This document shows positions 18,497-32,537 of a stretch of 35,399 bases of DNA, in pieces. Source of the DNA: Candidatus Omnitrophota bacterium (GTDB lineage: Bacteria > Omnitrophota > Gorgyraeia > Gygaellales > JAMWDD01); contig JAQUNK010000015.1 of the NCBI GenBank assembly GCA_028717645.1, positions 1-35,399 on the forward strand, read 5' to 3'. A model generated the notes under the pieces. The model searched no databases and was not told where the DNA came from. It saw nothing but the letters and a program-made list of their open reading frames with translations. The stretch's first letter is position 1. The number at the start of each line of letters is the position of its first letter. The position numbers were made by a program, and so were the translations under genes.

Positions 18497-20137
18497 ATGA
18501 AAAAAGCATTAAGCATATTTTTTATCAGCGCTTTGATTTTCTTCGCAGCTTCCGGCGCAAAATTATTCAGCCTGGAGTCCTTAAGCAATATGAGTGACGG
18601 CCAGGAGATCAGGATGGTCCTGGGCAATGTTGTGCGCTTCAAGATCGACGGTATCACTAAAATTGTGATCAGTAATCCTAAGATCGCAGACGTGGTTAAC
18701 GTTAATTTAAACGAACTGACCATTGAGCCCAAGGCAGTCGGCACGACAGAGTTCGTTTATATCGACGCAAAAGGAGAGCATAGACTTTTTATCCGTGTCT
18801 TACAGAGGGACCTTGAGGCGCTGAAGCGCGGAGTAGATGCCGTGATCCAGGCTACCGACGTCCAGGGCGTTTCTTCCCAGATCAATTATGAAGCGCAAAA
18901 AGTTTATCTTACCGGAGAAATTTTAAATGAAGTGGATAGGAAGCGTATCCTTACGGCGCTTGGGCCCCTATCGACGGATGTTGTGGATCTGATGGTTACC
19001 GAGGAACAAAAGATACCTATCGAAATAGATGTGGAAGCCGTGGAAATGGATAAGAATGATGTGGATGACATCGGCGTGAAATGGACACTGGAGCCGTTCG
19101 CCACTATCCAGGAAACACCATTTTCCGGAGCGCCGGTTAATATGAAGAGCCTGGGGACCAGGCTAGGCCAGGGTTTAAAAGTAGGGTATACCAATAGGAC
19201 CGCGGGCATAAAAGCGGATATCAATCTGCTTGTGCAGAGAGGTAAGGCAAAGATACTTTCGCGGCCCAAGCTGGTCTGTTTAAGTGGCAAAGAGGCGCAG
19301 TTCATGGTGGGTGGCGAAATACCCGTGGTTACCGTGACCGTAAACGGCGGAGGCGGGTCATCGGGCAGCACCACGCCTAACGTAGAATATAAAAAATATG
19401 GAGTTTCTTTGAATATAAAACCGCGGATCAGGGAGAGCGGAGAAATAGAACTTGTAGTCAATACCGAGGTCACGGATATCGATAAGACCCGTTCCATAAG
19501 CACGACCACGGTAGTAGCCCCCGCTTTTACTACGCGCACCGCGCAGACAGAACTCTATTTAAAAGATAATGAAACCGTATTTTTAGCCGGTTTGATCAGC
19601 AACAAAAAAGAAACTACTACCCAATACCCGCCGATCTTAGGGAAGATCCCCGGTGTGAGTTTATTTTTTAGAAACAAAGATGAAACCAATGATCAGATAG
19701 AATTATTGATCTCTCTTACGCCGCGCATAAAGAAATTATCTACCCAGGAAACTTTTTATCAATCCAATGAAATGACGCCGCCTGTGCGTCAGATCGTCAA
19801 AGCAGCCGATAACGCCATATCAGAACCTGTTTCTTTACCCGCGCAGTCGCTGGCTTTGCAGGAATATGGTGCGCTTATCCAGCGCGCGATCGTAGATACC
19901 ATTGTTGTGCCTAAAGAAGGCCTAGATGCCAAATTAGTTGTTGCCTTATCTATCGAACCCGATGGTTCAATCAAGAACATTGCTTTAAAAGAGGCCTCGG
20001 GGAACAAGGCAGTCGATGACGCGGTCATCGAGGCGGTAAAAAGGCAATCTCCGTTCCCGGCTTTCCCGCCGCAGCTAAAACAGGAAGAAATTTCATTAGA
20101 TATACCCATTGTTTTTGAAAAATCCCGCCAAGGATAA
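18497..20137 (+). CDS. cpaC: Tad secretin CpaC/RcpA fused to a TonB C-terminal domain
   Basis: A signal peptide and an N-terminal pilus-secretin region (RMVLGNVVRFKIDGITKIVI, NLNELTIEPKAVGTTEF) precede a BON/N1-like part and the secretin channel domain (ILSRPKLVCLSGKEAQFMVG, VEYKKYGVSLNIKPRI, ETVFLAGLISNKK, LLISLTPRIKK). It forms the outer-membrane pore for the Tad pilus. The final 85 or so residues (from about 455) are an added module with the TonB C-terminal pattern: AKLVVALSIEPDGSIKNIAL, ASGNKAVDDAVIEAV and SPFPAFPPQL. Secretins normally end soon after the channel domain, so this is a fusion at 546 residues. It lies 7 bp before the ATPase fusion gene. Confidence 0.88.
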   Translation: MKKALSIFFISALIFFAASGAKLFSLESLSNMSDGQEIRMVLGNVVRFKIDGITKIVISNPKIADVVNVNLNELTIEPKAVGTTEFVYIDAKGEHRLFIRVLQRDLEALKRGVDAVIQATDVQGVSSQINYEAQKVYLTGEILNEVDRKRILTALGPLSTDVVDLMVTEEQKIPIEIDVEAVEMDKNDVDDIGVKWTLEPFATIQETPFSGAPVNMKSLGTRLGQGLKVGYTNRTAGIKADINLLVQRGKAKILSRPKLVCLSGKEAQFMVGGEIPVVTVTVNGGGGSSGSTTPNVEYKKYGVSLNIKPRIRESGEIELVVNTEVTDIDKTRSISTTTVVAPAFTTRTAQTELYLKDNETVFLAGLISNKKETTTQYPPILGKIPGVSLFFRNKDETNDQIELLISLTPRIKKLSTQETFYQSNEMTPPVRQIVKAADNAISEPVSLPAQSLALQEYGALIQRAIVDTIVVPKEGLDAKLVVALSIEPDGSIKNIALKEASGNKAVDDAVIEAVKRQSPFPAFPPQLKQEEISLDIPIVFEKSRQG

Positions 20138-20144
20138 CTTAAAA

Positions 20145-22298
20145 ATGCCCGCAAAAACAATCACCATATTCAGCACTAAAGGCGGTGTTGGGAAAACGCT
20201 TTTAGCTGTTAACCTCGCAATCAGCCTGGCCGGCCTGAACAAAAAAGTCGCGCTTTTAGATGCTGACTTTACAGTAGTCGGCGATACGATTAATATGCTG
20301 AATATACCCAACCCAAAATCAGGGTTGGATTTTCATTCTTCACTCGCTAAACAGCCATCCACGCCTACACAAGACCTGATAAACCATCTGGATAATTACA
20401 AGATCGATTTCCTGCCTATAGTCTTAAGGCCACGGCAATCAAGCCTGGTTACTTCCGAAATGATAAATAATATTCTTTCTAAGCTGGAAGAGCAATACGA
20501 TTTTATCGTCATCGACGCGGGCGCATCTTTTTCGGATAACCTACTCAGTATTTTTAACCGCTCTAACCTGGTCCTCTTAATAGTTACTCCTGACGTTTTA
20601 GCGGTATACCAGACAAAATGGACCCTGGATATCCTGGAGTCGCTGCAGTTCCCGCTAAATATGATCAAAATAGTAGTGAACAGGGCTGAAAGCCTGGGGA
20701 GTGCGGATTTGCAGCAGATCAAGGCGAACATTCCCTGCGATATTATCAGCCGCATACCGTCCGAAGGAAGGGCGGCAGGTGTGGCTCTGGCCAAAGGTGT
20801 GCCTCTGGCGATAGATAACCCTCGTTCCCAGGTTGCCCGTTCGATCCGCGGCCTGGCTGAAGAGCTTTTGGATGAAAGAAAAAACTGGTTTGTTTCGCAC
20901 GTCGATATGCAGGCAGGGCACTTAAAGAAAGACGTACTGGAACAAAAACCCAGTTTCTACCAACTCTATAACCTCACAGAATTTTATCTGGATAAAAAAG
21001 AAGGAGCGCTGGACGAGGTCATTCAGTTGAAACAGCGCGTGCATCAAAAATTGATGGAGCAGCTTGACCTGAAGCGCCTGGAAGTCAATGCCATGACTGA
21101 TGAGCAGTCGGCGAAAGAGATCAGGGAAAAAGTAGGCCAGGCCATCACCAATATATTGGCCACGGAGACCAGGGCCTTTTTATCGAATTTTGAAGTAAGA
21201 AAACACCTGATCAAAGAATTGGTGGATGAATACCTCGGCCTAGGGCCATTAGAGGACCTGCTCAATGAAGCCGATGTGAGCGATATTATGGTGAACGGCA
21301 AGGACGCGATTTACGTCGAAAAACACGGAAAGATCGAATTGACCTCCAAAAGGTTTATCAGCGAAGAGCAGTTGAGGCACGTGATCGAAAGGATAGTCGC
21401 CCCTCTCGGCCGCAGAATCGATGAGTCCCAGCCTATGGTTGATGCCCGGCTTCCTGACGGCTCAAGAGTCAATGCCATAATCCCTCCGCTTGCTTTAGGC
21501 GGAGCGAAACTCACCATCAGGAAATTTGGCCGCGAGCGCCTGGAAATCAATGATATGATAAAAATAAATAGCCTCAGTCAAAACATGCGGGATTTTCTGG
21601 AGGCATGTGTCACGACACGGCGTAATCTCGTGGTTTCCGGCGGTACTGGTTCGGGTAAAACCACGGTATTAAACGTCCTTTCAGGGTTTATTCCCAATAA
21701 TGAGCGCATTATTACTATCGAAGATGCGGCGGAACTTAAATTAAGGCAGGAACATTGGGTACGCCTTGAGTCCAGGCCTCCGAACATTGAAGGAAAAGGC
21801 GCCATTACCATCAGGGACCTTTTTAGGAATACTCTTCGCATGCGCCCGGATAGAATTATCGTAGGCGAGTGCCGCGGCGCTGAATCTTTGGATATGCTTC
21901 AGGCAATGAATACCGGCCACGACGGTTCAATGACCACCATACACGCTAACTCTAGTAACGATGTCCTGACGCGCTTAGATTCGATGGTACTGATGTCGGG
22001 TTTTGAACTGCCGGTAAGGGCGATCATGGAAATGATCGCTTCGGCGATCCATGTCATCGTCCACACCGCCCGGCTTTCCGACGGTACAAGAAAGATAATC
22101 CAGATCACCGAACTCGTCGGTATGCTCGATGATATCCACATCGGCCTGAAAGATATCTTTCTCTTCAAACAAAAAGGTATCGATACTAACGGAAAGATCC
22201 TCGGCGACTTCCATCCTACGGGATATATTCCCACCAAGCTCCTTGAGGAATTCAAGGTAAGAGGGATCAAGCTTGATGAAAGCATGTTTAAGCTCTGA
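20145..22298 (+). CDS. TadZ/CpaE - TadA/CpaF fusion ATPase
   Basis: One 717-residue reading frame joins two Tad proteins that are usually separate. Residues about 1-250 are a ParA/MinD-type ATPase (deviant Walker A KGGVGKT at 12-18, VALLDADF, DFIVIDAGA), matching CpaE/TadZ, the polar localisation factor. Residues about 290-717 are the CpaF/TadA secretion ATPase: helical N-domain, VDEYLGLGPLEDLL, DISDIMVNG-type motif, Walker A GGTGSGKT near 499-506, Asp box ITIEDAAEL, Walker B IIVGECRG, and MTTIHAN. The MinD half lacks the N-terminal receiver domain of Caulobacter CpaE. I chose ATG 20145 because it begins right at the MinD fold and has AAGGA upstream; the earlier in-frame TTG 20109 would overlap cpaC. 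Confidence 0.93.
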   Translation: MPAKTITIFSTKGGVGKTLLAVNLAISLAGLNKKVALLDADFTVVGDTINMLNIPNPKSGLDFHSSLAKQPSTPTQDLINHLDNYKIDFLPIVLRPRQSSLVTSEMINNILSKLEEQYDFIVIDAGASFSDNLLSIFNRSNLVLLIVTPDVLAVYQTKWTLDILESLQFPLNMIKIVVNRAESLGSADLQQIKANIPCDIISRIPSEGRAAGVALAKGVPLAIDNPRSQVARSIRGLAEELLDERKNWFVSHVDMQAGHLKKDVLEQKPSFYQLYNLTEFYLDKKEGALDEVIQLKQRVHQKLMEQLDLKRLEVNAMTDEQSAKEIREKVGQAITNILATETRAFLSNFEVRKHLIKELVDEYLGLGPLEDLLNEADVSDIMVNGKDAIYVEKHGKIELTSKRFISEEQLRHVIERIVAPLGRRIDESQPMVDARLPDGSRVNAIIPPLALGGAKLTIRKFGRERLEINDMIKINSLSQNMRDFLEACVTTRRNLVVSGGTGSGKTTVLNVLSGFIPNNERIITIEDAAELKLRQEHWVRLESRPPNIEGKGAITIRDLFRNTLRMRPDRIIVGECRGAESLDMLQAMNTGHDGSMTTIHANSSNDVLTRLDSMVLMSGFELPVRAIMEMIASAIHVIVHTARLSDGTRKIIQITELVGMLDDIHIGLKDIFLFKQKGIDTNGKILGDFHPTGYIPTKLLEEFKVRGIKLDESMFKL

Positions 22299-22668: not shown

Positions 22669-24444
22669 TTAAGCGAGGGCGAACCATAAGCGCCGGTTAT
22701 TTAAGTCGAAGAGGCACTTTTGGTTCATTCTTTTGATGAGGTATTCCAGTTCTTTTCTGAAGGCATATTTTTCAGGCAGGATAAGGCGTACGAGAGAATA
22801 TTTTTCCGTGCTTTCGATTTCCGCTTTAAGGTCGTAAAACTTCTCTTTCAGCACATCAAGCGAACGCAGCCCTTCTTCGGGTATGGTGAAATGCCTTAAA
22901 CAGTAAATGTTCAGGGCGTTGTTCCAGAATGCCAGGATATCTTCCCAGTTTAAAGAAGGACGGTCCGGATAAATCGGGAATCTTCTTTCCAGCGCGTAAG
23001 TGAACAATTCATTTTTCTTATCCAGATCATTAAAAGCAAATAAGGGGTCAGGCCAGGCCTCGAGGAATCTTAGAACTACGGTTTGAGCATCCGCTTCTTC
23101 GCTGGTAAAGTTGGTGTAAAGGCAAATAAAAGGTTTCGCCTGCCCAGGTCTCTTTAGAGCGAACATGCGTATTTTAGTCTCTGTCCTGGATATGCTGGCA
23201 CTTAATTCAATTTCTGATTCGATGACCTGGAATTCTTCCCTAGAACGTTGTATAACCAGGTTTAATTCTTCTTTGCTTGAGCGTATTTTTAAACTACGCT
23301 CTAATTGTTGGGGGAGTGCAGCAAAAATAAAATTCCTTTTATCAAGTATCGTATCTTCCATGGCTGATATGACCCGTGTTCCTTCTGCCATAATCTCTAT
23401 TTTTTCCGCCGGAACCTTCATCCAGGTAAAAAGGTTGTCTAATTGTTTCAGGTCAAGCGGCGCACTAAGCAAGAGTATGCCTTTATTTTTCAGCCGGTCT
23501 ACTAGATTAGCCTTGGCCCAGCCGATGTTTGCACAAAATTCACGCGCGATATTATTTGTCGGCCAGAGCGAATTAAATTCCGCGTCGATATAAAAATTCC
23601 GGCCGTCATCCAAGGTTATTTTAAAAGAACGGATCTCATCCAGTTTTCGGGGCAGTTGTTGGCAAATTTGATTCAGGCTCTGCGAAATGTCGCCGGAGAG
23701 CCGGGGTTCGGGATATTTTTTTAAAGCAGTGATATCTTTGGTAAACACGCCCTTCGCCAGTTCTGCATAAATTTCTGAAATTTGTTTTTCATCTTGTCCG
23801 GGCAAACGGCACAATTGTAAAATATAGTCTAATCCTCCTAAAGCCAGGTCTGCGGCCTGAAAGATATAGAATCCGGCTTCAGCAAATACTTTTACGGGTT
23901 TTATTTCTACGGGTTCAGGAATCGGCTCTGGTTTTACAGGTAATTCTGGTTGGGGATTTACCTCGGGCTCGGGTATTGGTTCAGGCTTTGGTTCTGGTTT
24001 TTGTTCGGGTAGTGGCTCGGGTATTGGTTTGGACTCTGGTTCAGATTTTTGTTCAGCTATTGGTTCGGGTATTGGTTCTGGCTCTGGCTTTGGCAACGGT
24101 TCAGGTTCTTTAATTGGCTCGGAAGATGGCGTTGGTTCGGGTTCCGGTAGGAAGGCTTTAGTTTTTGGTTCAGGCAGTGCCTGAATAGGCGCACTTTGAG
24201 CTTTTGATTTTGTTTCTGGCGCAGTCTTAGTTAGCGCTGGCTTTGCCTTGAGGGATTTCCTGCCGATCCGATCGCTTAGGCCAGCTTCTTTGATAATGGC
24301 ATTTATACTGGATTTAGAGATCTTAACCTGGAATTTGTCTTGTGCTACTGAAGCAAGTTTACGGCAGCTTATTTGAGGGTACGCTTTTTTATGCTCAAGG
24401 ATAAAATTTTTTATTTCCGGCAATAATTTATATTCACCACTCAT
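22669..24444 (-). CDS. HTH protein with degenerate transposase-like body and Pro/Glu linker
   Basis: A 591-residue protein with three parts. Residues 1-60 look like a transposase-type helix-turn-helix: EIKNFILEHKKAYPQISCRK, then KISKSSINAIIKEAGL and IGRK. Residues about 85-195 are a low-complexity linker of repeating PEP/EPIPEP units. The rest (from AGFYIFQAADLALGGLDYIL) resembles the DDE-transposase-like family I associate with Omnitrophota, including DAEFNSLWP and a LYTNFTSEEA followed by FLEAWPDPLFAFNDL, which aligns with the LTN and Y-x-x-RW-x-x-E signature but with the catalytic-type residues changed. I infer a domesticated, probably catalytically dead, DNA-binding protein. ATG 24444 has AGGAG at good spacing. 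Its promoter is surrounded by TTGGACA motifs. Confidence 0.65.
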   Translation of the reverse strand: MSGEYKLLPEIKNFILEHKKAYPQISCRKLASVAQDKFQVKISKSSINAIIKEAGLSDRIGRKSLKAKPALTKTAPETKSKAQSAPIQALPEPKTKAFLPEPEPTPSSEPIKEPEPLPKPEPEPIPEPIAEQKSEPESKPIPEPLPEQKPEPKPEPIPEPEVNPQPELPVKPEPIPEPVEIKPVKVFAEAGFYIFQAADLALGGLDYILQLCRLPGQDEKQISEIYAELAKGVFTKDITALKKYPEPRLSGDISQSLNQICQQLPRKLDEIRSFKITLDDGRNFYIDAEFNSLWPTNNIAREFCANIGWAKANLVDRLKNKGILLLSAPLDLKQLDNLFTWMKVPAEKIEIMAEGTRVISAMEDTILDKRNFIFAALPQQLERSLKIRSSKEELNLVIQRSREEFQVIESEIELSASISRTETKIRMFALKRPGQAKPFICLYTNFTSEEADAQTVVLRFLEAWPDPLFAFNDLDKKNELFTYALERRFPIYPDRPSLNWEDILAFWNNALNIYCLRHFTIPEEGLRSLDVLKEKFYDLKAEIESTEKYSLVRLILPEKYAFRKELEYLIKRMNQKCLFDLNNRRLWFALA

Positions 24445-24457
24445 TTTTTCTCCTATG

Positions 24458-24535
24458 AATTGGACATTTATTACAAAATAGATTATAGGATAAATTTTGT
24501 CCAAAAGCAAGTATTATTTTAATTGGACAATTTAA
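24458..24535. repeat. TTGGACA motif cluster A (three copies)
   Basis: AATTGGACATTTA (24458-24470) and AATTGGACAATTTAA (24521-24535) are direct copies with TTGGACA starts 63 bp apart. An inverted copy TGTCCAA (24498-24504) lies between them. AATTGGACAATT is palindromic except for its central two bases. Relative to the minus-strand promoter the three copies fall upstream of -35, inside the -10/-35 spacer and just past the transcription start, a layout typical of operator sites. Confidence 0.75.
24482..24510 (-). promoter_or_regulatory. Promoter of the minus-strand HTH gene
   Basis: On the minus strand TTGCTT (24505-24510) and a perfect TATAAT (24482-24487) are 17 nt apart. The predicted start near 24475 gives a 30-nt leader that contains AGGAG before ATG 24444. 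The spacer includes an inverted TTGGACA motif, suggesting repression by whatever binds it. Confidence 0.8.
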
Positions 24536-24715: not shown

Positions 24716-24851
24716 GTAAGCGGCACGAAAGGGCAATTCCGCCAGAGCGGGGGATGAGCAAAGCCACGGGACAAAAGGACGGGAAAAACAGGCATTATAG
24801 ATCAAGGCCGTTCTGTCATTTTTTGTTAACCGGGCTACCGAAAGCCGTTAC
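24716..24851 (+). promoter_or_regulatory. Cyclic-di-GMP-I (GEMM-I) type riboswitch before the pilin array
   Basis: The leader has the GEMM-I layout. P1 is GTAA(G)CGGC (24716-24724) paired with GCCGTTAC (24844-24851). ACGAAAGGGCAA leads into P2 (TTCCGC with GCGGGGGA). Next comes the hallmark GAGCAAAGCCACGGG, and the closing strand CCGGGCTACCGAA. GCC(A)CGG (24763-24769) pairs with CCGGGC (24830-24835), leaving the bulged A seen in this class. P3 carries an insert of about 60 nt (24770-24829) that can extend the helix: ACAAAA with TTTTGT, ACGG with CCGT. The family was assigned by eye from these conserved blocks; ligand specificity (c-di-GMP or a related dinucleotide) is not proven. Confidence 0.82.
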
Positions 24852-24870
24852 CGAAGCTTTCGGTTTTTTG
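24837..24870 (+). terminator. Riboswitch-coupled intrinsic terminator A
   Basis: ACCGAAAGC (24837-24845) can pair with GCTTTCGGT (24856-24864), followed by a run of T (24864-24869). The left arm is also the end of the aptamer core and P1, so the long hairpin and the ligand-bound fold exclude each other, suggesting that ligand turns transcription on. A shorter hairpin (ACCGAA-GCT-TTCGGT, 24850-24864) does not compete as strongly, so the sign of regulation needs testing. Confidence 0.75.
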
Positions 24871-24884
24871 TTGGGAGTTTAGTG

Positions 24885-25547
24885 ATGAGTTTAAAAAAGT
24901 GTTTAAGAAGTAAGAGGGGCTGGAGTTTTATAGAATATGCGTTGATTTTTGTGGCGGTCGTTGCCGGCGTGGTTGTGTTACTTCAGCAAACACTTTCAGG
25001 TACCGGCACCATACACAAAGCGTTCCAGCAAAAGGCCACCAGCTATATAGCAGCGATAACAAATAATACGCCCATAAACGATGGTAACGGGGGGGATACA
25101 GGTTCTGGTTGTGACCGGGCGGCTCTACAGACGCAGATAGACATGCTTAACCAGCAAATAGCTGCGTTAGAGCGGCAAATAGTGACGATTAATGAAGAGA
25201 TAGAAACACTGGAAGGGACAAAGCACCTTTTTCGACCGGCGTGTGAACGATGCCATAATTATTGCGAAACAAGTTGCACTGATAGTTGTAATTTAAGTTG
25301 TGAGGCGAATTGTACATATAGTTTAGACGTGCGCTGTTTCCCGGATTGCCTGCCGCCGTGTATTTCGGACTGCCGCGTGCCCTGCGATGAGAATTGCGAT
25401 AGCAACAATAGCGGCTGTGTGCAGTTAAAAAAAATCGAGAATCTGCAAGCAGATCTCCGGGGACAGATAGGAAAGATCAACCAGCAGATACAGGATAGCA
25501 GGAAACAAAAACAGGCGCTGCAGGCCGAGCTTGAAGCCTGCGTTTAA
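24885..25547 (+). CDS. Flp-type prepilin with coiled-coil arms and CX3 cysteine ladder
   Basis: A 220-residue protein. The N-terminus SKRG/WSFIEYALIFVAVVAG fits a Flp/Tad prepilin: cleavage after Gly12, Glu at +5, Tyr at +6, then a hydrophobic helix. Residues about 77-112 (repeating IAALERQIVTINEEIETL) and 180-218 (ENLQADLRGQIGKINQQI) are probable coiled-coil strands that could form an antiparallel hairpin. Between them Cys falls at every fourth position from 123 to 171, with one gap at Leu147: 12 of 13 positions. Extra Cys are at 76, 120, 178 and 219. A single CERCH (120-124) matches a haem-c motif, perhaps by chance. It is far larger than a normal Flp pilin and is the first gene behind the riboswitch, so it may be a tip or adhesin subunit. 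GGGAG precedes ATG 24885. Confidence 0.8.
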   Translation: MSLKKCLRSKRGWSFIEYALIFVAVVAGVVVLLQQTLSGTGTIHKAFQQKATSYIAAITNNTPINDGNGGDTGSGCDRAALQTQIDMLNQQIAALERQIVTINEEIETLEGTKHLFRPACERCHNYCETSCTDSCNLSCEANCTYSLDVRCFPDCLPPCISDCRVPCDENCDSNNSGCVQLKKIENLQADLRGQIGKINQQIQDSRKQKQALQAELEACV

Positions 25548-25551
25548 AAAA

Positions 25552-25830
25552 ATGAAGATAAATAGAAGCGGACAAGTAGTATTAGAGTGGGTGGTAATTG
25601 TTCTGATATGCGCTACGGTGGCTCTTTCAGTGGTAAAAAAATACGCCAAGACGCATATGCAGGATATGTACCGTAAGAACGTAAACCAGTTCTCCCAGGA
25701 CCTCTATGACCGGGATGGAACCTGGAGCCAGAATGTCACCCGCGGTGATGTGGGGACAAGCACAGGCTTAAAGGTCGACGGTAATTTATTTGATAGCCAC
25801 TATGACCATGATGACGGTTATTATGACTAA
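25552..25830 (+). CDS. Flp/TadE-like minor prepilin
   Basis: A 92-residue protein beginning MKINRSG/QVVLEWVVIVLICATVALSV, a prepilin N-terminus with Gly at -1 and Glu at +5 followed by a membrane helix. The remainder is hydrophilic and ends in an Asp/His/Tyr-rich tail (SHYDHDDGYYD) that could bind metal, though this is speculative. ATG 25552 is only 4 nt after the previous stop, suggesting translational coupling; an in-frame TTG at 25531 would start inside the previous gene and spoil the leader. Confidence 0.75.
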   Translation: MKINRSGQVVLEWVVIVLICATVALSVVKKYAKTHMQDMYRKNVNQFSQDLYDRDGTWSQNVTRGDVGTSTGLKVDGNLFDSHYDHDDGYYD

Positions 25831-25844
25831 GAGCGAGGGTGAAA

Positions 25845-26015
25845 ATGTTCATAAGAAATAGGAGAAACCGGGCGCAGTCAATGATAGAATATAGTGTGTT
25901 GATCGCGATAGTATCGGCGGCGATAGTGGCAATGACCGTCTATGTAAATCGTTCGATCAAGGGTAAAATGAAACATATAGAATCACAGTTAAACGAACCG
26001 ACAGTCTTAAAGTAA
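25845..26015 (+). CDS. Flp-type pilin (56 residues)
   Basis: A short gene, ATG 25845 to TAA 26015, with GAGGGTG as ribosome site. The product starts MFIRNRRNRA/QSMIEYSVLIAIVSAAIVAM: basic leader, Ala at -1 instead of Gly, Glu at +5 and Tyr at +6, then one membrane helix and a 20-residue basic end. Size and layout fit a classical Flp major pilin (about 50-60 residues). It is one of ten consecutive prepilin-like genes. Confidence 0.8.
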   Translation: MFIRNRRNRAQSMIEYSVLIAIVSAAIVAMTVYVNRSIKGKMKHIESQLNEPTVLK

Positions 26016-26034
26016 ATAAAAGGGAGGTGCAAAA

Positions 26035-26256
26035 ATGTTTTTAAGAACCAGAAAAGGCCAAAGTACGCTGGAATACGTTGTAATTCTTGTAGGCGTAATT
26101 ATCGCGATCGTAGCGGCAAAGACACTACTTGCGCCTAAGGTCAAAAAGGCCATTGGTGAAGATGCGGCGAGTGCCATTAGCCAGTCGACGGATAAATTTG
26201 TAAATACCTTGGACGGTTATGGTACGTCTGGAGGGGGAACGCAAAATGCTAAATAA
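26035..26256 (+). CDS. Flp-type pilin (73 residues)
   Basis: MFLRTRKG/QSTLEYVVILVGVIIAIVAA shows the canonical Flp processing site (Gly at -1, Glu +5, Tyr +6) and hydrophobic helix. The mature part ends in a Gly/Thr/Ser tail (GYGTSGGGTQNAK). It is preceded by a strong GGGAGGTG ribosome site, one of the best in the array, so it may be abundantly made. Its last codons overlap the next gene by 11 bp. Confidence 0.85.
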   Translation: MFLRTRKGQSTLEYVVILVGVIIAIVAAKTLLAPKVKKAIGEDAASAISQSTDKFVNTLDGYGTSGGGTQNAK

Positions 26257-26407
26257 AAAGGGTTGGAGCGCTTTAGAATACTTGATCATGACCGTGGCCG
26301 TAGTAGCGGCCTTGGTGGCTGGTGCCGTGACTTTTAAAGACCACGTAAAAGGTTACGTGGATAAGGTCGGCACACAGCTTGAGGAAAGCGTAAATACCAG
26401 TGATTAA
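26246..26407 (+). CDS. Flp-type pilin (53 residues)
   Basis: MLNKKG/WSALEYLIMTVAVVAALVAG has a very short leader, Gly at -1, Glu +5 and Tyr +6, a hydrophobic helix, then an amphipathic tail. At 53 residues it is the most typical Flp pilin here. I chose ATG 26246, which has GAGGGGGAAC upstream and gives the proper leader; the earlier GTG in frame would lie deep in the previous gene. The Trp at +1 is shared only with the first gene of the array. Confidence 0.83.
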   Translation: MLNKKGWSALEYLIMTVAVVAALVAGAVTFKDHVKGYVDKVGTQLEESVNTSD

Positions 26408-26429
26408 TAACTAAAAGGGGGTGAAGAAA

Positions 26430-26777
26430 ATGTTAATACGTACGAGGAAAGGACAGGCATTTTCAGAATACGCCATATTTTTGGGGATCATTTTAGCCGC
26501 TTTCATGGCCATGCAGCATTATATGAGAAATTCCGTATCCGGTAAGTTAAAGGCCGGCGCGGATTATATGCTTAAGGGCGGTGCGGCTGAGGGTGATATC
26601 CTTTCGGCGAATCTTTATGACCCGTTATCAGGTAAGGAGATGACGAGTGAAAGCACGACTGCTGGCGGAACGCATGCCATGACTAAAGAAGGCGGGGTTA
26701 CCGAAGGGTTCACCAGCGAAAGTTCAAGCCAGGCAGGAAACCAGACTTGGAAGAACACTGAAAGTCCTACTGAATAA
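26430..26777 (+). CDS. Flp-like prepilin with Ser/Thr/Gly-rich tail (115 residues)
   Basis: MLIRTRKG/QAFSEYAIFLGIILAAFMAM is a Flp processing site and helix. From about residue 40 the protein extends into a Ser/Thr/Gly/Glu-rich hydrophilic tail, about twice the length of a usual Flp pilin. ATG 26430 has GGGGGTG at good spacing; an in-frame GTG at 26421 is part of that ribosome site and unlikely to be used. Confidence 0.82.
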   Translation: MLIRTRKGQAFSEYAIFLGIILAAFMAMQHYMRNSVSGKLKAGADYMLKGGAAEGDILSANLYDPLSGKEMTSESTTAGGTHAMTKEGGVTEGFTSESSSQAGNQTWKNTESPTE

Positions 26778-26809
26778 TAACAAATATAATCATTTAGGAG
26801 GTGAACAAA

Positions 26810-27106
26810 ATGTTAAGGTTAAGAAGCAGGGGGCAAAGTACACTGGAATACGCAGCGTTGGTAGCCTGTATCGTAGCGGCCATAATTATCATGCAGCGTT
26901 ATTTTAACCGCGCCGCGCAGGGAAAGATCAGGGGTGCTGCGGATCAGGTCGGCGAGCAGTTTGATTATGGTAAGACCGACCAGAGTTACCAGTATACTTC
27001 GCACAGCAAAAACACAGAAAAACTGGAAGCCGGTACATATGGTACGAACCTGGAAGATTCTTCTTTTAACAAGACAGCGGGTACCTATACCGTGAACCAG
27101 CAATAA
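26810..27106 (+). CDS. Flp-like prepilin with polar tail (98 residues)
   Basis: MLRLRSRG/QSTLEYAALVACIVAAIIIMQRYF contains the Flp site and helix, followed by NRAAQGKIRGAADQVGEQF, a segment closely echoed in the next gene. The tail is rich in Thr, Tyr, Ser and Asn. GGAGGTG precedes ATG 26810. The similarity of the first 50 residues to its neighbours indicates recent tandem duplication, with the tails diverging. Confidence 0.83.
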   Translation: MLRLRSRGQSTLEYAALVACIVAAIIIMQRYFNRAAQGKIRGAADQVGEQFDYGKTDQSYQYTSHSKNTEKLEAGTYGTNLEDSSFNKTAGTYTVNQQ

Positions 27107-27134
27107 TAAAGCGGTTTTTCCGCGGAGCGAGACG

Positions 27135-27437
27135 ATGTTTTTACGCAAAAGCAAAGCTCAGACAGTAGCAGAATATGCTGCTCTGATCGCCATCCTCGCC
27201 GCTGCCATTATGACCATGCGGATCTATATGCAAAGGGCAGTGCAGGGCAAGGCGAAGGCGTTGGTAGACCAGATAAACCCGTATCAATACAACCCTACGG
27301 ATACCTCCAGTGTCACTACCACAAATACGACTGGAGAAGGCAGTTATAATATGACGGGTATAAATTCATATACCAGCGGTTCAGAAACCAGCGAGCGGGA
27401 TTGGTCGGAGAGTTCTAGAGGAGACGTAGTAGAATGA
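27135..27437 (+). CDS. Flp-like prepilin with Thr/Ser-rich tail (100 residues)
   Basis: MFLRKSKA/QTVAEYAALIAILAAAIMTM shows Ala at -1, Glu +5 and Tyr +6. MRIYMQRAVQGKAKALVDQI parallels the equivalent part of the preceding gene, supporting duplication. The C-terminal half is Thr/Ser/Asn/Gly-rich (SSVTTTNTTGEGSYN). GGAGCGAG lies before ATG 27135. It overlaps the next gene by 4 bp (ATGA), consistent with coupled translation. Confidence 0.82.
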   Translation: MFLRKSKAQTVAEYAALIAILAAAIMTMRIYMQRAVQGKAKALVDQINPYQYNPTDTSSVTTTNTTGEGSYNMTGINSYTSGSETSERDWSESSRGDVVE

Positions 27438-28321
27438 TAGGGTTATACATCAGAAGAGCGAAGAAAAACAAGCGCGGCCAGGCATTAGTTGAATTATCGG
27501 TATTGGGCGCTGTAGTGATAATGCTGCTTGTCTGGATGCTCGGCCTAGGCCAGAGTATAAGCTATAACCAGGCCCTGGGTATGCATTCTTTTAGGATGGC
27601 AGAGAAATTGGCCAGGCAGAGGAGCCAAGATGGCAACATGGGCAGTGTTTCCTTTAATACCATCTCCGGCGTAAATCCGGTAAACCCGATGAATACCAAG
27701 GCAGGTTCGAACGACGCCAGTGGCAGCGGTTCGGTGATGTGGGAAAATCAGATGTTCGCTTTCCAGCCAGCGACGGAATCATATGATGCTACCGAAGAGG
27801 ATTCTCCTATCACGTACTATCAGATGGGCGAGACAATGATAAAGAAGAACCAGGCCATTAAATGGCCCACGATGCTGGTTAAGCGTAAGCCCGATCCGGA
27901 TACCGGCATGCATACCGGCGACTGGTATTTTGATATTTTTGGCGACGTGATCAATACGCTTAATCAAATACAATCTGGCAGTTATGCGGAAGACAATGAA
28001 TATTATTCTATCGAATCCCAGCCAACCTGGGATAGCTATAAAGTAACGGGAGAGAAGTATAAGGTTGACCAGCGGATCGCCCAGGCCGGCAGAAACATTA
28101 ATTTTTCCGAGAAATCCAAAAATAAGGTAGAGACGGCTACTATTTTTAAGATCGTACCTGAACACTATATCGAAGATGAGTGGGACAAAGATGATCTGGT
28201 GGAGAAAGTCGAAAAGGCGGTTCCTCTTTCGGATATAGATGGAGACGGATACAAGGAGGCCGTAGTCACCCAGACCCAGGAATTAACCGGGGAAAAGACA
28301 TGGCAAGGTTCGGCGAATTAA
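27434..28321 (+). CDS. TadE-like pseudopilin (295 residues)
   Basis: The leader KKNKRG/QALVELSVLGAVVIMLLVWMLGL is of the TadE/TadF type: Gly at -1, Glu at +5 without Tyr, and a long hydrophobic helix. The remaining 240 residues are hydrophilic with aromatic and acidic stretches, and include YYSIESQPTWDSYKVTG and DIDGDGYKEAV, the latter a Ca-binding-like Asp-rich loop (DIDGDGYKE). TadE-type proteins are minor pseudopilins needed for assembly. The start overlaps the preceding stop (ATGA) and GGAG is upstream. Confidence 0.72.
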   Translation: MIGLYIRRAKKNKRGQALVELSVLGAVVIMLLVWMLGLGQSISYNQALGMHSFRMAEKLARQRSQDGNMGSVSFNTISGVNPVNPMNTKAGSNDASGSGSVMWENQMFAFQPATESYDATEEDSPITYYQMGETMIKKNQAIKWPTMLVKRKPDPDTGMHTGDWYFDIFGDVINTLNQIQSGSYAEDNEYYSIESQPTWDSYKVTGEKYKVDQRIAQAGRNINFSEKSKNKVETATIFKIVPEHYIEDEWDKDDLVEKVEKAVPLSDIDGDGYKEAVVTQTQELTGEKTWQGSAN

Positions 28322-28533
28322 GCAAAAGAAAGGCTCAATCAAGCCTGGAAGTAGCTTTGGTGTTGATCGGGATAGCTGTCCTGGTTACTGCTGTTGCCCG
28401 CTCCTGGAGCTGGGTAAACAGAGGCATGGTCGACAGGCTTTCCTCTTATAAAAATAGCCGCGTGGTTGCAGGTAGTGACAACCCGGGCGTAGCCATAGAT
28501 TACCAAGGGAAAAAACTCACAATAGTTAAATAA
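28300..28533 (+). CDS. TadE/Flp-like small prepilin (77 residues)
   Basis: MARFGELSKRKA/QSSLEVALVLIGIAVLVTAVARSW has Ala at -1 and Glu at +5 with Val rather than Tyr at +6, then a membrane helix. The mature part is short and basic. GGGGAAAAG precedes ATG 28300, which lies 22 bp inside the previous gene. It closes the pilin array; a terminator follows at 28560. Confidence 0.75.
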   Translation: MARFGELSKRKAQSSLEVALVLIGIAVLVTAVARSWSWVNRGMVDRLSSYKNSRVVAGSDNPGVAIDYQGKKLTIVK

Positions 28534-28643: not shown

Positions 28644-29900
28644 ATGCAGAAGAAGAGCATTTTTATATATTTTTATAGCGCAAGAAACGGGCAGCGAGGG
28701 CAAATCGCTGCCTTTTTGATTCTGGTGATGGTGATCATCCTGGTCGCGGCGATCGCGCTGATCCAGGTAGGCAGGGTGAGCCAGGATAAATTGAACACTG
28801 CCAATGCCGCAGATGCTGCGGCCTTAGCCGGTGCATCGATGATCGCCAGTTCTGCCAATATGCTCTGTGATATGAATAGGATCTTGGAGCAGAGTTACTT
28901 TATACAATTAGCTATCCTGGCCTGGCCGATCAACCTTGAAACCCACGCGGATATGGTCCCGACTCGTTTTTATATGTGGTTGTCCGCAGCGACGCTGGCC
29001 ATGCTTGTCTTCGCCGGAGAATTGATCTCTTCGGTGCAGGCTATGTCCCAGGCCCAGGGAAGCGCACACCAATATGCATTTAATAATGTGGGAATAGACG
29101 AAGCACCAAGAAAATCCAAGGGTACGCCTATGCCGATAAAACAGCCGTTTTCCGAATGGATGGAAGATCAGAAAATGAGCGAGCGGCAGAATGCGGGGAG
29201 CCTGGAAAAAACTTTTACTTATTCCGGATACCCTGAGGGTTCTTGGCATGAATATACTTTTAACCCGGCCACGGCCAAACAGGAGCCCGCAGGCTTAAAC
29301 TCTGTGTCTTCAACGACAGAATTAGGTGACTGTGGCATTGCGCTTAAACCCGCTGCATTCAATCCCTTGGTGGCGAATTACTATTTTGAGCTACCCCCTT
29401 GTGATCCGGTAGAGGGTTGTGGTGCCTGCATGCTGGTTTATGCTGTAGTGGTTTATGGTGCGTTGATGGAAATGTTCGCGGAAATGGCCATATCTTATGC
29501 GGCTTTTGCTGGTTTTTCGCTACCGATGATACCCTTGGTAGGAGATCCAAAGCTTTGTCCTGCTATCCGGCAGAGCGTGAGCTTATTTATGATCAATGTC
29601 GCCCTGCCGCATGTTTGGATGATCCCTTCGCCTCCCATTTGCGGCTTAGGCGCGGACATTGCTTTCTTTTATAATGCCCCGTTCGTCTATATGGAAAAGA
29701 TACTTAACGAGAATAAACTTTGGATAAAAACAGAAGTAACACGGAATTCTCCGGAAAGAAAAGTAGGTGGGCTTTGGAATATGCAGCCGATAAGTGTAAC
29801 AAGCAGTGCAAAAGGAAGAGTGAAAAATACCTGCGGCACCTGGAATCCTTTTGATTACGACGCGGTTTGCTACGACTTGGGCCTGGAAAGCGCACAATAA
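28644..29900 (+). CDS. TadG-like pilus-assembly protein
   Basis: A 418-residue protein whose N-terminus matches the TadG N-terminal domain: RGQIAAFLILVMVIILVAAIALIQVGRV, then KLNTANAADAAALAGAS, the hallmark of that family. Further hydrophobic segments occur at about 85-100, 110-130 and 255-300 (VYAVVVYGALMEMFAEMAIS), unusual for TadG, which usually has a von Willebrand-type exported domain; none is evident. Four or more Cys in the second half (PPCDPVEGCGACM) suggest disulfides. There is no Shine-Dalgarno before ATG 28644, matching a leaderless transcript. Confidence 0.72.
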   Translation: MQKKSIFIYFYSARNGQRGQIAAFLILVMVIILVAAIALIQVGRVSQDKLNTANAADAAALAGASMIASSANMLCDMNRILEQSYFIQLAILAWPINLETHADMVPTRFYMWLSAATLAMLVFAGELISSVQAMSQAQGSAHQYAFNNVGIDEAPRKSKGTPMPIKQPFSEWMEDQKMSERQNAGSLEKTFTYSGYPEGSWHEYTFNPATAKQEPAGLNSVSSTTELGDCGIALKPAAFNPLVANYYFELPPCDPVEGCGACMLVYAVVVYGALMEMFAEMAISYAAFAGFSLPMIPLVGDPKLCPAIRQSVSLFMINVALPHVWMIPSPPICGLGADIAFFYNAPFVYMEKILNENKLWIKTEVTRNSPERKVGGLWNMQPISVTSSAKGRVKNTCGTWNPFDYDAVCYDLGLESAQ

Positions 29901-30787: not shown

Positions 30788-31633
30788 ATGCTCATAGCCA
30801 TTTTTATCGTTGTTTTCGTCTTGAGTTTCCTTATCGCCAACCGCTATTATGCCGTTGCCGAAAAAAGGCTTACCGTGGCCCATGAAAAAAAGGTCGAAAG
30901 GGCCGCGAAAGACCTGAATAACTTATTTGTTTCTGTACAAAGAAAAAAGATCCTGTTTTATTTTTTCGCCACACCCGTGGTTCTGGGGGTCACCGGTTTT
31001 ATCGTAACGGGTAATCCCGCTATCGCCGCAATATTTGCCTTTATCGGGCTTTCCATACCGCAATTTGTGATAAAAAGTTATGATATACAAAGAAGAAAAA
31101 AATTCAGCCTCCAGCTTATTGACGCGCTGATGCTTTTATCCGCGTCGCTAAAAGCGGGCCTGAGTTTGAACCAGGCGTTTGAAGAACTTGTAGAGGAAAT
31201 GCCTGCGCCAATATCCCAGGAATTCGACCTTCTGATCAAAGAGATCAATATGGGCGTTTCTTTCGATGAAGCGCTGTTGCATTTAAAAAAACGCATGCGT
31301 TCGGAAGACCTGGACCTGATTGTGACCGCCATTGCCATAGCCAGAGAGACCGGTGGACAACTGCCCACGGTATTTTCAAAACTGGTTTTTACCATCAAAG
31401 AAAGACAGACATTACGCGGCAAGGTGGGTGCGCTTACCGTGCAGGCAAAACTTCAGGGTATAATTATGAGCATCTTACCGGTTATCTTCGTGGTCGTGGT
31501 TTATAAATTCAACCCGGAGCATTTCCAGATGTTCTTAAAAGAGAATATCGGCAGGATGCTGTTGATATACGCGGTAATTTCCCAGATCATCGGGACATTC
31601 CTGATCATAAAATTCAGCCAGGTGGAGATATAA
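30788..31633 (+). CDS. tadB: Tad inner-membrane platform protein TadB (T2SS F family)
   Basis: A 281-residue protein with N-terminal membrane helices (IFIVVFVLSFLIA, FFATPVVLGVTGFIV), the T2SSF core (LQLIDALMLLSASLKAGLSL, FDLLIKEINMGVSFDEALLH, RETGGQLPTVFSKL) and two C-terminal helices. TadB and TadC form the membrane platform contacted by the TadA ATPase, here encoded 8 kb upstream in the fusion gene. AAGGGAAAAAT precedes ATG 30788. It is followed directly by tadC. Confidence 0.92.
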   Translation: MLIAIFIVVFVLSFLIANRYYAVAEKRLTVAHEKKVERAAKDLNNLFVSVQRKKILFYFFATPVVLGVTGFIVTGNPAIAAIFAFIGLSIPQFVIKSYDIQRRKKFSLQLIDALMLLSASLKAGLSLNQAFEELVEEMPAPISQEFDLLIKEINMGVSFDEALLHLKKRMRSEDLDLIVTAIAIARETGGQLPTVFSKLVFTIKERQTLRGKVGALTVQAKLQGIIMSILPVIFVVVVYKFNPEHFQMFLKENIGRMLLIYAVISQIIGTFLIIKFSQVEI

Positions 31634-31634
31634 T

Positions 31635-32537
31635 ATGGAATTATTTGTTTTTGCCGCAGTTTTTTTCGTAATTTTTTTCTCTGTTTATACCCTATTAAAG
31701 CGTAGGCAGGCAAAATATTCAGGGCTGGAAATGCGGCAGCTGATGCCGCAGGCTAAGCCCTCAGAACTGAGTGTAAAAAGCGAAAGAAAAGAAGGGTTCA
31801 AGGGGATTCTGGCTTTTCTCAGCCCCCTGGCGCAAAAGGTTGCCGCCAAGAAGCCCCGCGAAGGCCTGGTCAGGGACCTGGTTACCGCGGGTAAGCCCTT
31901 GACCATAGTGGAATTCTACGCATTGGTTTTACTTTGTACGATAATCGGGCTGGTGGCTGGGGTAATATTTATGAATGTTACTTCAGGCAAAAATCCGAAC
32001 TTGGCCATTCCCCTTTTCGGCGCGTTCTTTGGTTTTGCCATGCCGCGCATGTGGCTGAACCAAAAAAAGAAAAAACGCCAGCAAAGCATTGCCAAAGAGT
32101 TGCCCAGCGTAATCGACCTTTTGAATTTGTGTGTAGGCTCAGGCATAGACTTTATGCTGGCAGTCAACCGCGTGATCAAGGATTATAAGCCTTGTCCTTT
32201 GACCGATGAACTGACCCAACTTTGGCAGGAAAATAATATGGGCACCCCGCGTAAGGACGCCTTAAGAAACTTATCCTGGCGGGTGAATCTGCCGGAGATG
32301 TCCAGCTTTGTTTCTACGCTTATTCAGGCTGATAAAATGGGTACACCCATTTCCGATGCTCTGGAAATCCAGGCAGAGCAGATCAGAATAAAGCGTTTCC
32401 AAAGAGGCGAAGAACAGGCCTTGCAGGCGCCGATAAAATTATTGATCCCGCTGATATTCTTTATCCTGCCAGTAGTGGCGATCATTGTAGCTGCGCCTAT
32501 ATTAATCCAATTTTTGCAAGGTGGAATAAACTTCTAA
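31635..32537 (+). CDS. tadC: Tad inner-membrane platform protein TadC (T2SS F family)
   Basis: A 300-residue partner of TadB: N-terminal helix (FVFAAVFFVIFFSVYTLL), then FYALVLLCTIIGLVAGVIF, the T2SSF core (LPSVIDLLNLCVGSGIDFML, MPEMSSFVSTLIQ-like LPEMSSFVSTLIQADKMG) and a closing pair of helices (LLIPLIFFILPVVAIIVAAP). GGTGGAG supplies a ribosome site inside the end of tadB. Its stop codon overlaps the first AATTGGACAATT motif of cluster B. Confidence 0.92.
   Translation: MELFVFAAVFFVIFFSVYTLLKRRQAKYSGLEMRQLMPQAKPSELSVKSERKEGFKGILAFLSPLAQKVAAKKPREGLVRDLVTAGKPLTIVEFYALVLLCTIIGLVAGVIFMNVTSGKNPNLAIPLFGAFFGFAMPRMWLNQKKKKRQQSIAKELPSVIDLLNLCVGSGIDFMLAVNRVIKDYKPCPLTDELTQLWQENNMGTPRKDALRNLSWRVNLPEMSSFVSTLIQADKMGTPISDALEIQAEQIRIKRFQRGEEQALQAPIKLLIPLIFFILPVVAIIVAAPILIQFLQGGINF

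Follow-up and report, generated by a model that had tools for sequence, protein, structure and literature searches.

The gene at positions 24885..25547 (+) of the window (the whole stretch of 35,399 nucleotides analyzed here) raises the question of what a pilin would do with a long ladder of evenly spaced cysteines. From its translation, a weak Flp_Fap match and an orthologue from a second genus of the family ('Candidatus Omnitrophota bacterium', MAG contig JAMWDD010000030.1, L006:6001-6594), the 220-aa product (P0001) can be described as a putative extended Flp-type prepilin. Residues 1-12 (24885..24920, +) form a prepilin leader with a predicted cut between G12 and W13 (RG↓WSFIEY), followed in residues 13-60 (24921..25064, +) by a hydrophobic pilin helix and its amphipathic continuation. 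The G/A↓XXXXE[Y/F] leader, present as RG↓WSFIEYALIFVAVVAGVVVLL, and the helix behind it are kept in the orthologue, which is 50% identical to the window protein over residues 1-60 (z 20). A Shine-Dalgarno-like GGGAG precedes the ATG at 24885, and the orthologue, which begins MSLKKCLKSKAGWSFIEYA, has the same start. A wrong start codon is consequently ruled out, and the Flp-type leader and start proposed in the original prediction hold. The score against Pfam Flp_Fap (PF04964) is 20.3 bits, below the cut-off of 32.2, and apart from this weak match the Pfam, NCBIfam and PDB sequence searches returned only coiled-coil noise; the window protein is matched by a profile that was made for this analysis from short first-gene Tad pilins, of which it is one. 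By its sequence, we file the protein as Flp-type and not as a curated Flp_Fap member. The genome contains an A24 prepilin peptidase gene, and processing by this peptidase and assembly into pili are predicted. Type IVc pilins usually have 50-80 aa (PMC10934763), a size exceeded by both the 220-aa precursor and the mature pilin of 208 aa. In general, the protein is a Tad pilin by its leader and locus, and it lies outside the standard family by its length and curated Pfam score.

The surroundings of the gene are those of a Tad locus. Upstream, two genes at 18497..22298 (+) encode a secretin (RcpA/CpaC-like) and a fused TadZ-TadA-like ATPase (Pfam PF00263, PF13614 and PF00437). The window gene is the first in a series of about ten genes for Flp-like pilins, and the further short Flp-like pilins, together with one longer TadE-like protein, occupy 25531..28533 (+); these are ORFs with G/A-XXXX-E-Y/W/L leaders and stand in the same order in genome G001. 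Downstream lie a TadE/G-like protein (28644..29900, +; PF13400) and two genes for TadB- and TadC-like platform proteins (30788..32537, +; PF00482 in both), and the gene order is identical in the orthologue's contig. A putative c-di-GMP-I type riboswitch aptamer (24724..24843, +; Rfam RF03167 match) precedes the first pilin. The c-di-GMP-I-GGC match of the window copy (E 2.9e-5) reaches only 30.4 bits against a curated cut-off of 59; it was accepted because c-di-GMP-I/GGC matches above the cut-off precede the first pilin at the orthologous position in L006, L071, L073 and L074, and these matches support the proposal that the gene is the first behind a riboswitch. A terminator-like hairpin with a T run follows at 24838..24869 (+), as seen by folding (-12.6 kcal/mol, z -3.6) and by a terminator scan (match at 24850-24864), and the same arrangement of aptamer and terminator is visible in the orthologue. 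Because the last bases of the aptamer, in the 3' strand of P1, overlap the 5' arm of the terminator, this arrangement suggests that ligand binding may permit read-through. The genome has nine GGDEF matches. In addition, a gene divergent to the riboswitch (22669-24510, -) encodes a protein of 613 aa in which a weak Tc3-like helix-turn-helix is recognized. The protein is kept there in G001, with 41% identity, and less well in G074, with 22%.

The cysteines of the window protein lie at residues 6, 76, 120, 123, 127, 131, 135, 139, 143, 151, 155, 159, 163, 167, 171, 178 and 219. Translation of 24885-25547 reproduces the pattern on which the original prediction was built: in the register 123 + 4n (residues 123-171), 12 of the 13 positions are Cys, and the sole exception is Leu147. 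When the 60-residue block was shuffled with its own 14 Cys, twelve in one register occurred in 0 of 200,000 shuffles; the ladder is far beyond chance. The Cys codons are a mixture of TGT and TGC, and no DNA tandem repeat was found; an origin of the ladder by tandem repeat or simple slippage is therefore ruled out. The Cys-rich tip, residues 120-178 (25242..25418, +), was delimited by Cys positions, the predicted structure, and codon and mirror analysis, and it holds the ladder as residues 123-143, Leu147 and residues 151-171. Heptad-like arms with a hydrophobic period of 3.4-3.5 flank it, namely, arm 1 at residues 77-119 (25113..25241, +; period 3.5) and arm 2 at residues 179-219 (25419..25541, +), which ends in Cys219. 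Cys76 (25110..25112, +) precedes arm 1 and would mark the hairpin base by sequence and orthologue comparison. About residue 147, twelve Cys are mirrored exactly and fourteen within one residue. The twelve exact ones are as expected for rungs across a hairpin; the outer mirrored pair alone has a chance of about 13%, so the mirror argument rests on the ladder. Moreover, the number of Cys in the mature part is even in both proteins (16 in the window protein, 6 in the orthologue), which suits full pairing.

AlphaFold2, run with a two-sequence alignment only, predicts helices at residues 78-144, 151-174 and 176-219 of the window protein and a six-residue turn at 145-150. The pLDDT block means are approximately 80-93 over residues 81-210, and the leader and linker have low confidence. 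Similarly, the orthologue is predicted to form helices at residues 78-129 and 140-189, with its Cys near the turn. In both models, an antiparallel coiled-coil hairpin has Cys at its tip and a further Cys close to either end of its base (76/219 in the window protein, 75/190 in the orthologue). Foldseek returned only generic coiled coils for both models, none with E <= 0.001. The hydrophobic period and this model agree with the coiled-coil arms and helical Cys block that had been proposed. On the other hand, the two flanking strands are not separate strands around a rod but the two sides of one predicted hairpin, with the ladder at its tip. The idea that all Cys lie on one slowly twisting helix face is only partly right, since a spacing of 4 residues drifts by 40 degrees with every turn of a straight alpha helix, and the second half of the ladder (CFPDCLPPCISDCRVPCDENC, residues 151-171) contains four prolines. 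Because of these prolines, the AlphaFold2 helix over residues 151-171 is doubtful, and they argue against a regular 12-Cys double helix. In a rough parametric model of the rung geometry, which is approximate and ignores side-chain strain, 2 of the 6 rungs close on straight helices, five close at a right-handed pitch of 100 Å, and six close at a pitch of 80 Å or less. A tip built as a continuous six-rung ladder on a right-handed helical hairpin, made of disulfides or stacked metal-thiolate sites and displayed on a pilus switched by c-di-GMP, in a nanobacterium that may be predatory or attached to a host, is put forward only as a rather doubtful extension, and we know of no described example of such a fold.

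The 40-degree drift also has implications for a different use of the ladder. In a straight hairpin, the majority of Cys would not be directed at the partner helix, and those unable to reach it might instead bond neighboring pilins, giving a covalently chained filament. We consider such inter-subunit cross-linking very unlikely; the gene is single copy among many Cys-poor pilins (in the fetched loci, 193 of 231 frames with a leader-like sequence lack Cys, by a crude count that includes some non-pilins), the orthologue has few Cys, and no Cys-rich neighbor pilin was found in the array. Rungs across one hairpin remain the preferred reading of the ladder.

The orthologue, which also opens a Tad pilin array and likewise follows a c-di-GMP-I riboswitch, shows how far this reading extends. 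Its tip carries four Cys (127, 130, 133 and 141) in the form CX2CX2CX7C with no strict ladder. The tip is not alignable between the two proteins, and the similarity of the arms by sequence alone is weak (z 2.3 and 3.2). The original prediction had named a Cys register not conserved in orthologues as a result that would speak against it, and in the only orthologue CX2CX2CX7C indeed takes the place of the register; the description as a Cys-tipped hairpin pilin stands, although the register is not conserved. A homologue scan of one genome per species found this one orthologue, and a scan of viral contigs found none. The profile of first-gene pilins has matches at this position elsewhere in the order and class; the pilins read out there, outside the family, are short and have no ladder, and the long extension was seen only in the two family members. 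Of 384 Omnitrophota genomes, 61 have the ladder pattern TGY(N9)x6. No other ladder stands behind an Flp leader in the loci that were read, which represent part of these 61 genomes; the matches there belong to frames of low complexity, to DUF2207-like tails or to Cys-rich proteins that are secreted. Only the window's genome is known to have the strict ladder, and the Cys-tipped extension looks like a real but lineage-restricted elaboration. The occurrence of the ladder in one genome and the unalignable tip would also fit a transitory expansion under low constraint, in which the ladder elaborates a simple Cys-tipped hairpin without any register-dependent function. This alternative is unlikely, however, given that 12 of 13 register positions are Cys while their codons and the residues between them vary; because of this variation, the sequence suggests selection on Cys spacing and not DNA-level repeat growth.

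Other Omnitrophota proteins are also rich in Cys. DUF2207-like membrane proteins from several genera (L058:2816-4486, L059, L060 and L062:2613-4367) carry a tail of the form CHDA(CHSA)nCHGAC, a Cys-His ladder of period four common to several families, with a weak PF09972 match below the cut-off. Two genomes of one family encode small, apparently secreted proteins (L052:4243-4668 and L053:3714-3977) with a CX3-spaced, CCKAC..CC..CDxDCGGxCCSxC-like tail, and the L053 protein has no Pfam match. A short Flp-like pilin at L086:1384-1626 (-) has the Cys-rich end RCGDGICSAFEGCEKCPPDCGICL. Finally, a genome of the same order encodes an apparently secreted protein, not a pilin, with a CX3 ladder and many other Cys (L056:1886-2989) and no Pfam match.

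The tip cysteines include one CXXCH motif (CERCH, residues 120-124), which hints at a heme-binding, electron-carrying pilin, and conductive pilins have been predicted in some Omnitrophota (PMC10066038). Nevertheless, no Cytochrom_C_asm (PF01578) protein was matched in this genome or in three relatives, and CXXCH is absent from the orthologue; a c-type cytochrome was rejected on these two points, and we regard a heme pilin as extremely improbable.

With regard to the chemistry of the rungs, DsbA, DsbB, VKOR and Thioredoxin_4 had no match in the genome (94.5% complete; positive controls worked). Catalyzed disulfide formation is therefore left with no identified enzyme, and for this reason we hold the chances of disulfide rungs to be about even and give a metal-binding head a smaller, though appreciable, share. 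In the latter, as in reduced twin-CX3C proteins, CX3C pairs from both sides would contribute reduced Cys to tetrathiolate sites that bind Zn or another soft metal, and the pilus head could be stabilized by metal or could sense or scavenge it. In addition to the lack of matches to Dsb/VKOR-type oxidation enzymes, such a head is favored by the finding that reduced Tim9 and Tim10 bind Zn 1:1 through all four twin CX3C Cys (PMC3759932). The four tip Cys of the orthologue would likewise be enough for one site. However, the motif matches no metal-protein family by sequence in Pfam, NCBIfam or the PDB, and two to three nested metal sites on a pilin have, to our knowledge, no precedent, which also counts against this alternative.

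Overall, we favor a Cys-locked pilus head, with a probability of roughly 0.5 for the reading as a whole. The window protein would come first in a Tad (type IVc) pilin array controlled by a c-di-GMP riboswitch, and in one Omnitrophota family this normally short pilin would have gained a C-terminal antiparallel coiled-coil hairpin, a topology predicted by computation, with a Cys-rich tip. Once the leader is cleaved, the hydrophobic helix would pack in the pilus or cap it, and the hairpin would project outward. The Cys on one side of the tip may then lie opposite those on the other in antiparallel pairs (143-151, 139-155 ... 123-171). Leu147 would sit in the turn and a Cys76-Cys219 pair close to the base, and these rungs, most likely disulfides, would lock the hairpin. 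The result would be a stiff, protease-resistant head that contacts surfaces or other cells; a role of Omnitrophota Tad systems in predation or attachment has been discussed (PMC10066038). A minor or tip subunit is more likely than a shaft subunit because a mature pilin of 208 residues, encoded in single copy and carrying a projecting stiff hairpin, stands against the normal 50-80 residues.

Tad pilins are regarded as very small, simple proteins, and searches of Pfam, NCBIfam, the PDB, predicted folds and the open-access literature turned up no description of such a pilin. If a Tad pilin does bear a large Cys-locked coiled-coil head, it would show a shaft protein turned into one for the tip or for adhesion, in a phylum suspected of using its Tad pili for predation, and the apparent absence of known disulfide-forming enzymes makes the redox state of such a head a testable question. 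Compared to Flp/Tad (type IVc) pilins of PF04964, the window protein has the same G↓XXXXEY leader, hydrophobic helix, Tad locus and A24 peptidase in the genome; it differs in its mature length (208 versus 50-80 aa), its added Cys-rich coiled-coil hairpin and its Pfam score below the cut-off. The Rad50 zinc hook has long antiparallel coiled-coil hairpin arms with Cys at the turn and may resemble especially the CX2CX2CX7C tip of the orthologue, but the window protein is by its leader a putative exported pilin and not an SMC-like ATPase, and Foldseek gave only generic coiled coils. The twin-CX3C small Tim proteins, which are disulfide-bonded when oxidized and Zn-binding when reduced (PMC3759932), are similarly helix-loop-helix proteins tied by i,i+4 Cys pairs, whereas they are mitochondrial, have four Cys and have no sequence relation to the window protein. 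The alpha-hairpinins, plant antimicrobial peptides with the motif CX3C-X4-20-CX3C or, in the six-Cys form, CX3CX3C-X4-20-CX3CX3C (PMC11591084), also carry CX3C(X3C) on both arms of a helical hairpin with a short turn. Their core CX3C(X3C)-X4-20-C(X3C)X3C is contained in the (CX3)5C-X7-C(X3C)5 of the window protein, whose turn C143-X7-C151 fits X4-20. In contrast to these short peptides with two or three disulfides, the window protein is a 220-aa bacterial pilin with 12 ladder Cys, six per side instead of two or three, and four prolines on one side. The tip may thus resemble an extended alpha-hairpinin in design only, with no homology claimed, and it would test how far the CX3C helical-hairpin design, known with 2-3 rungs, can be extended.
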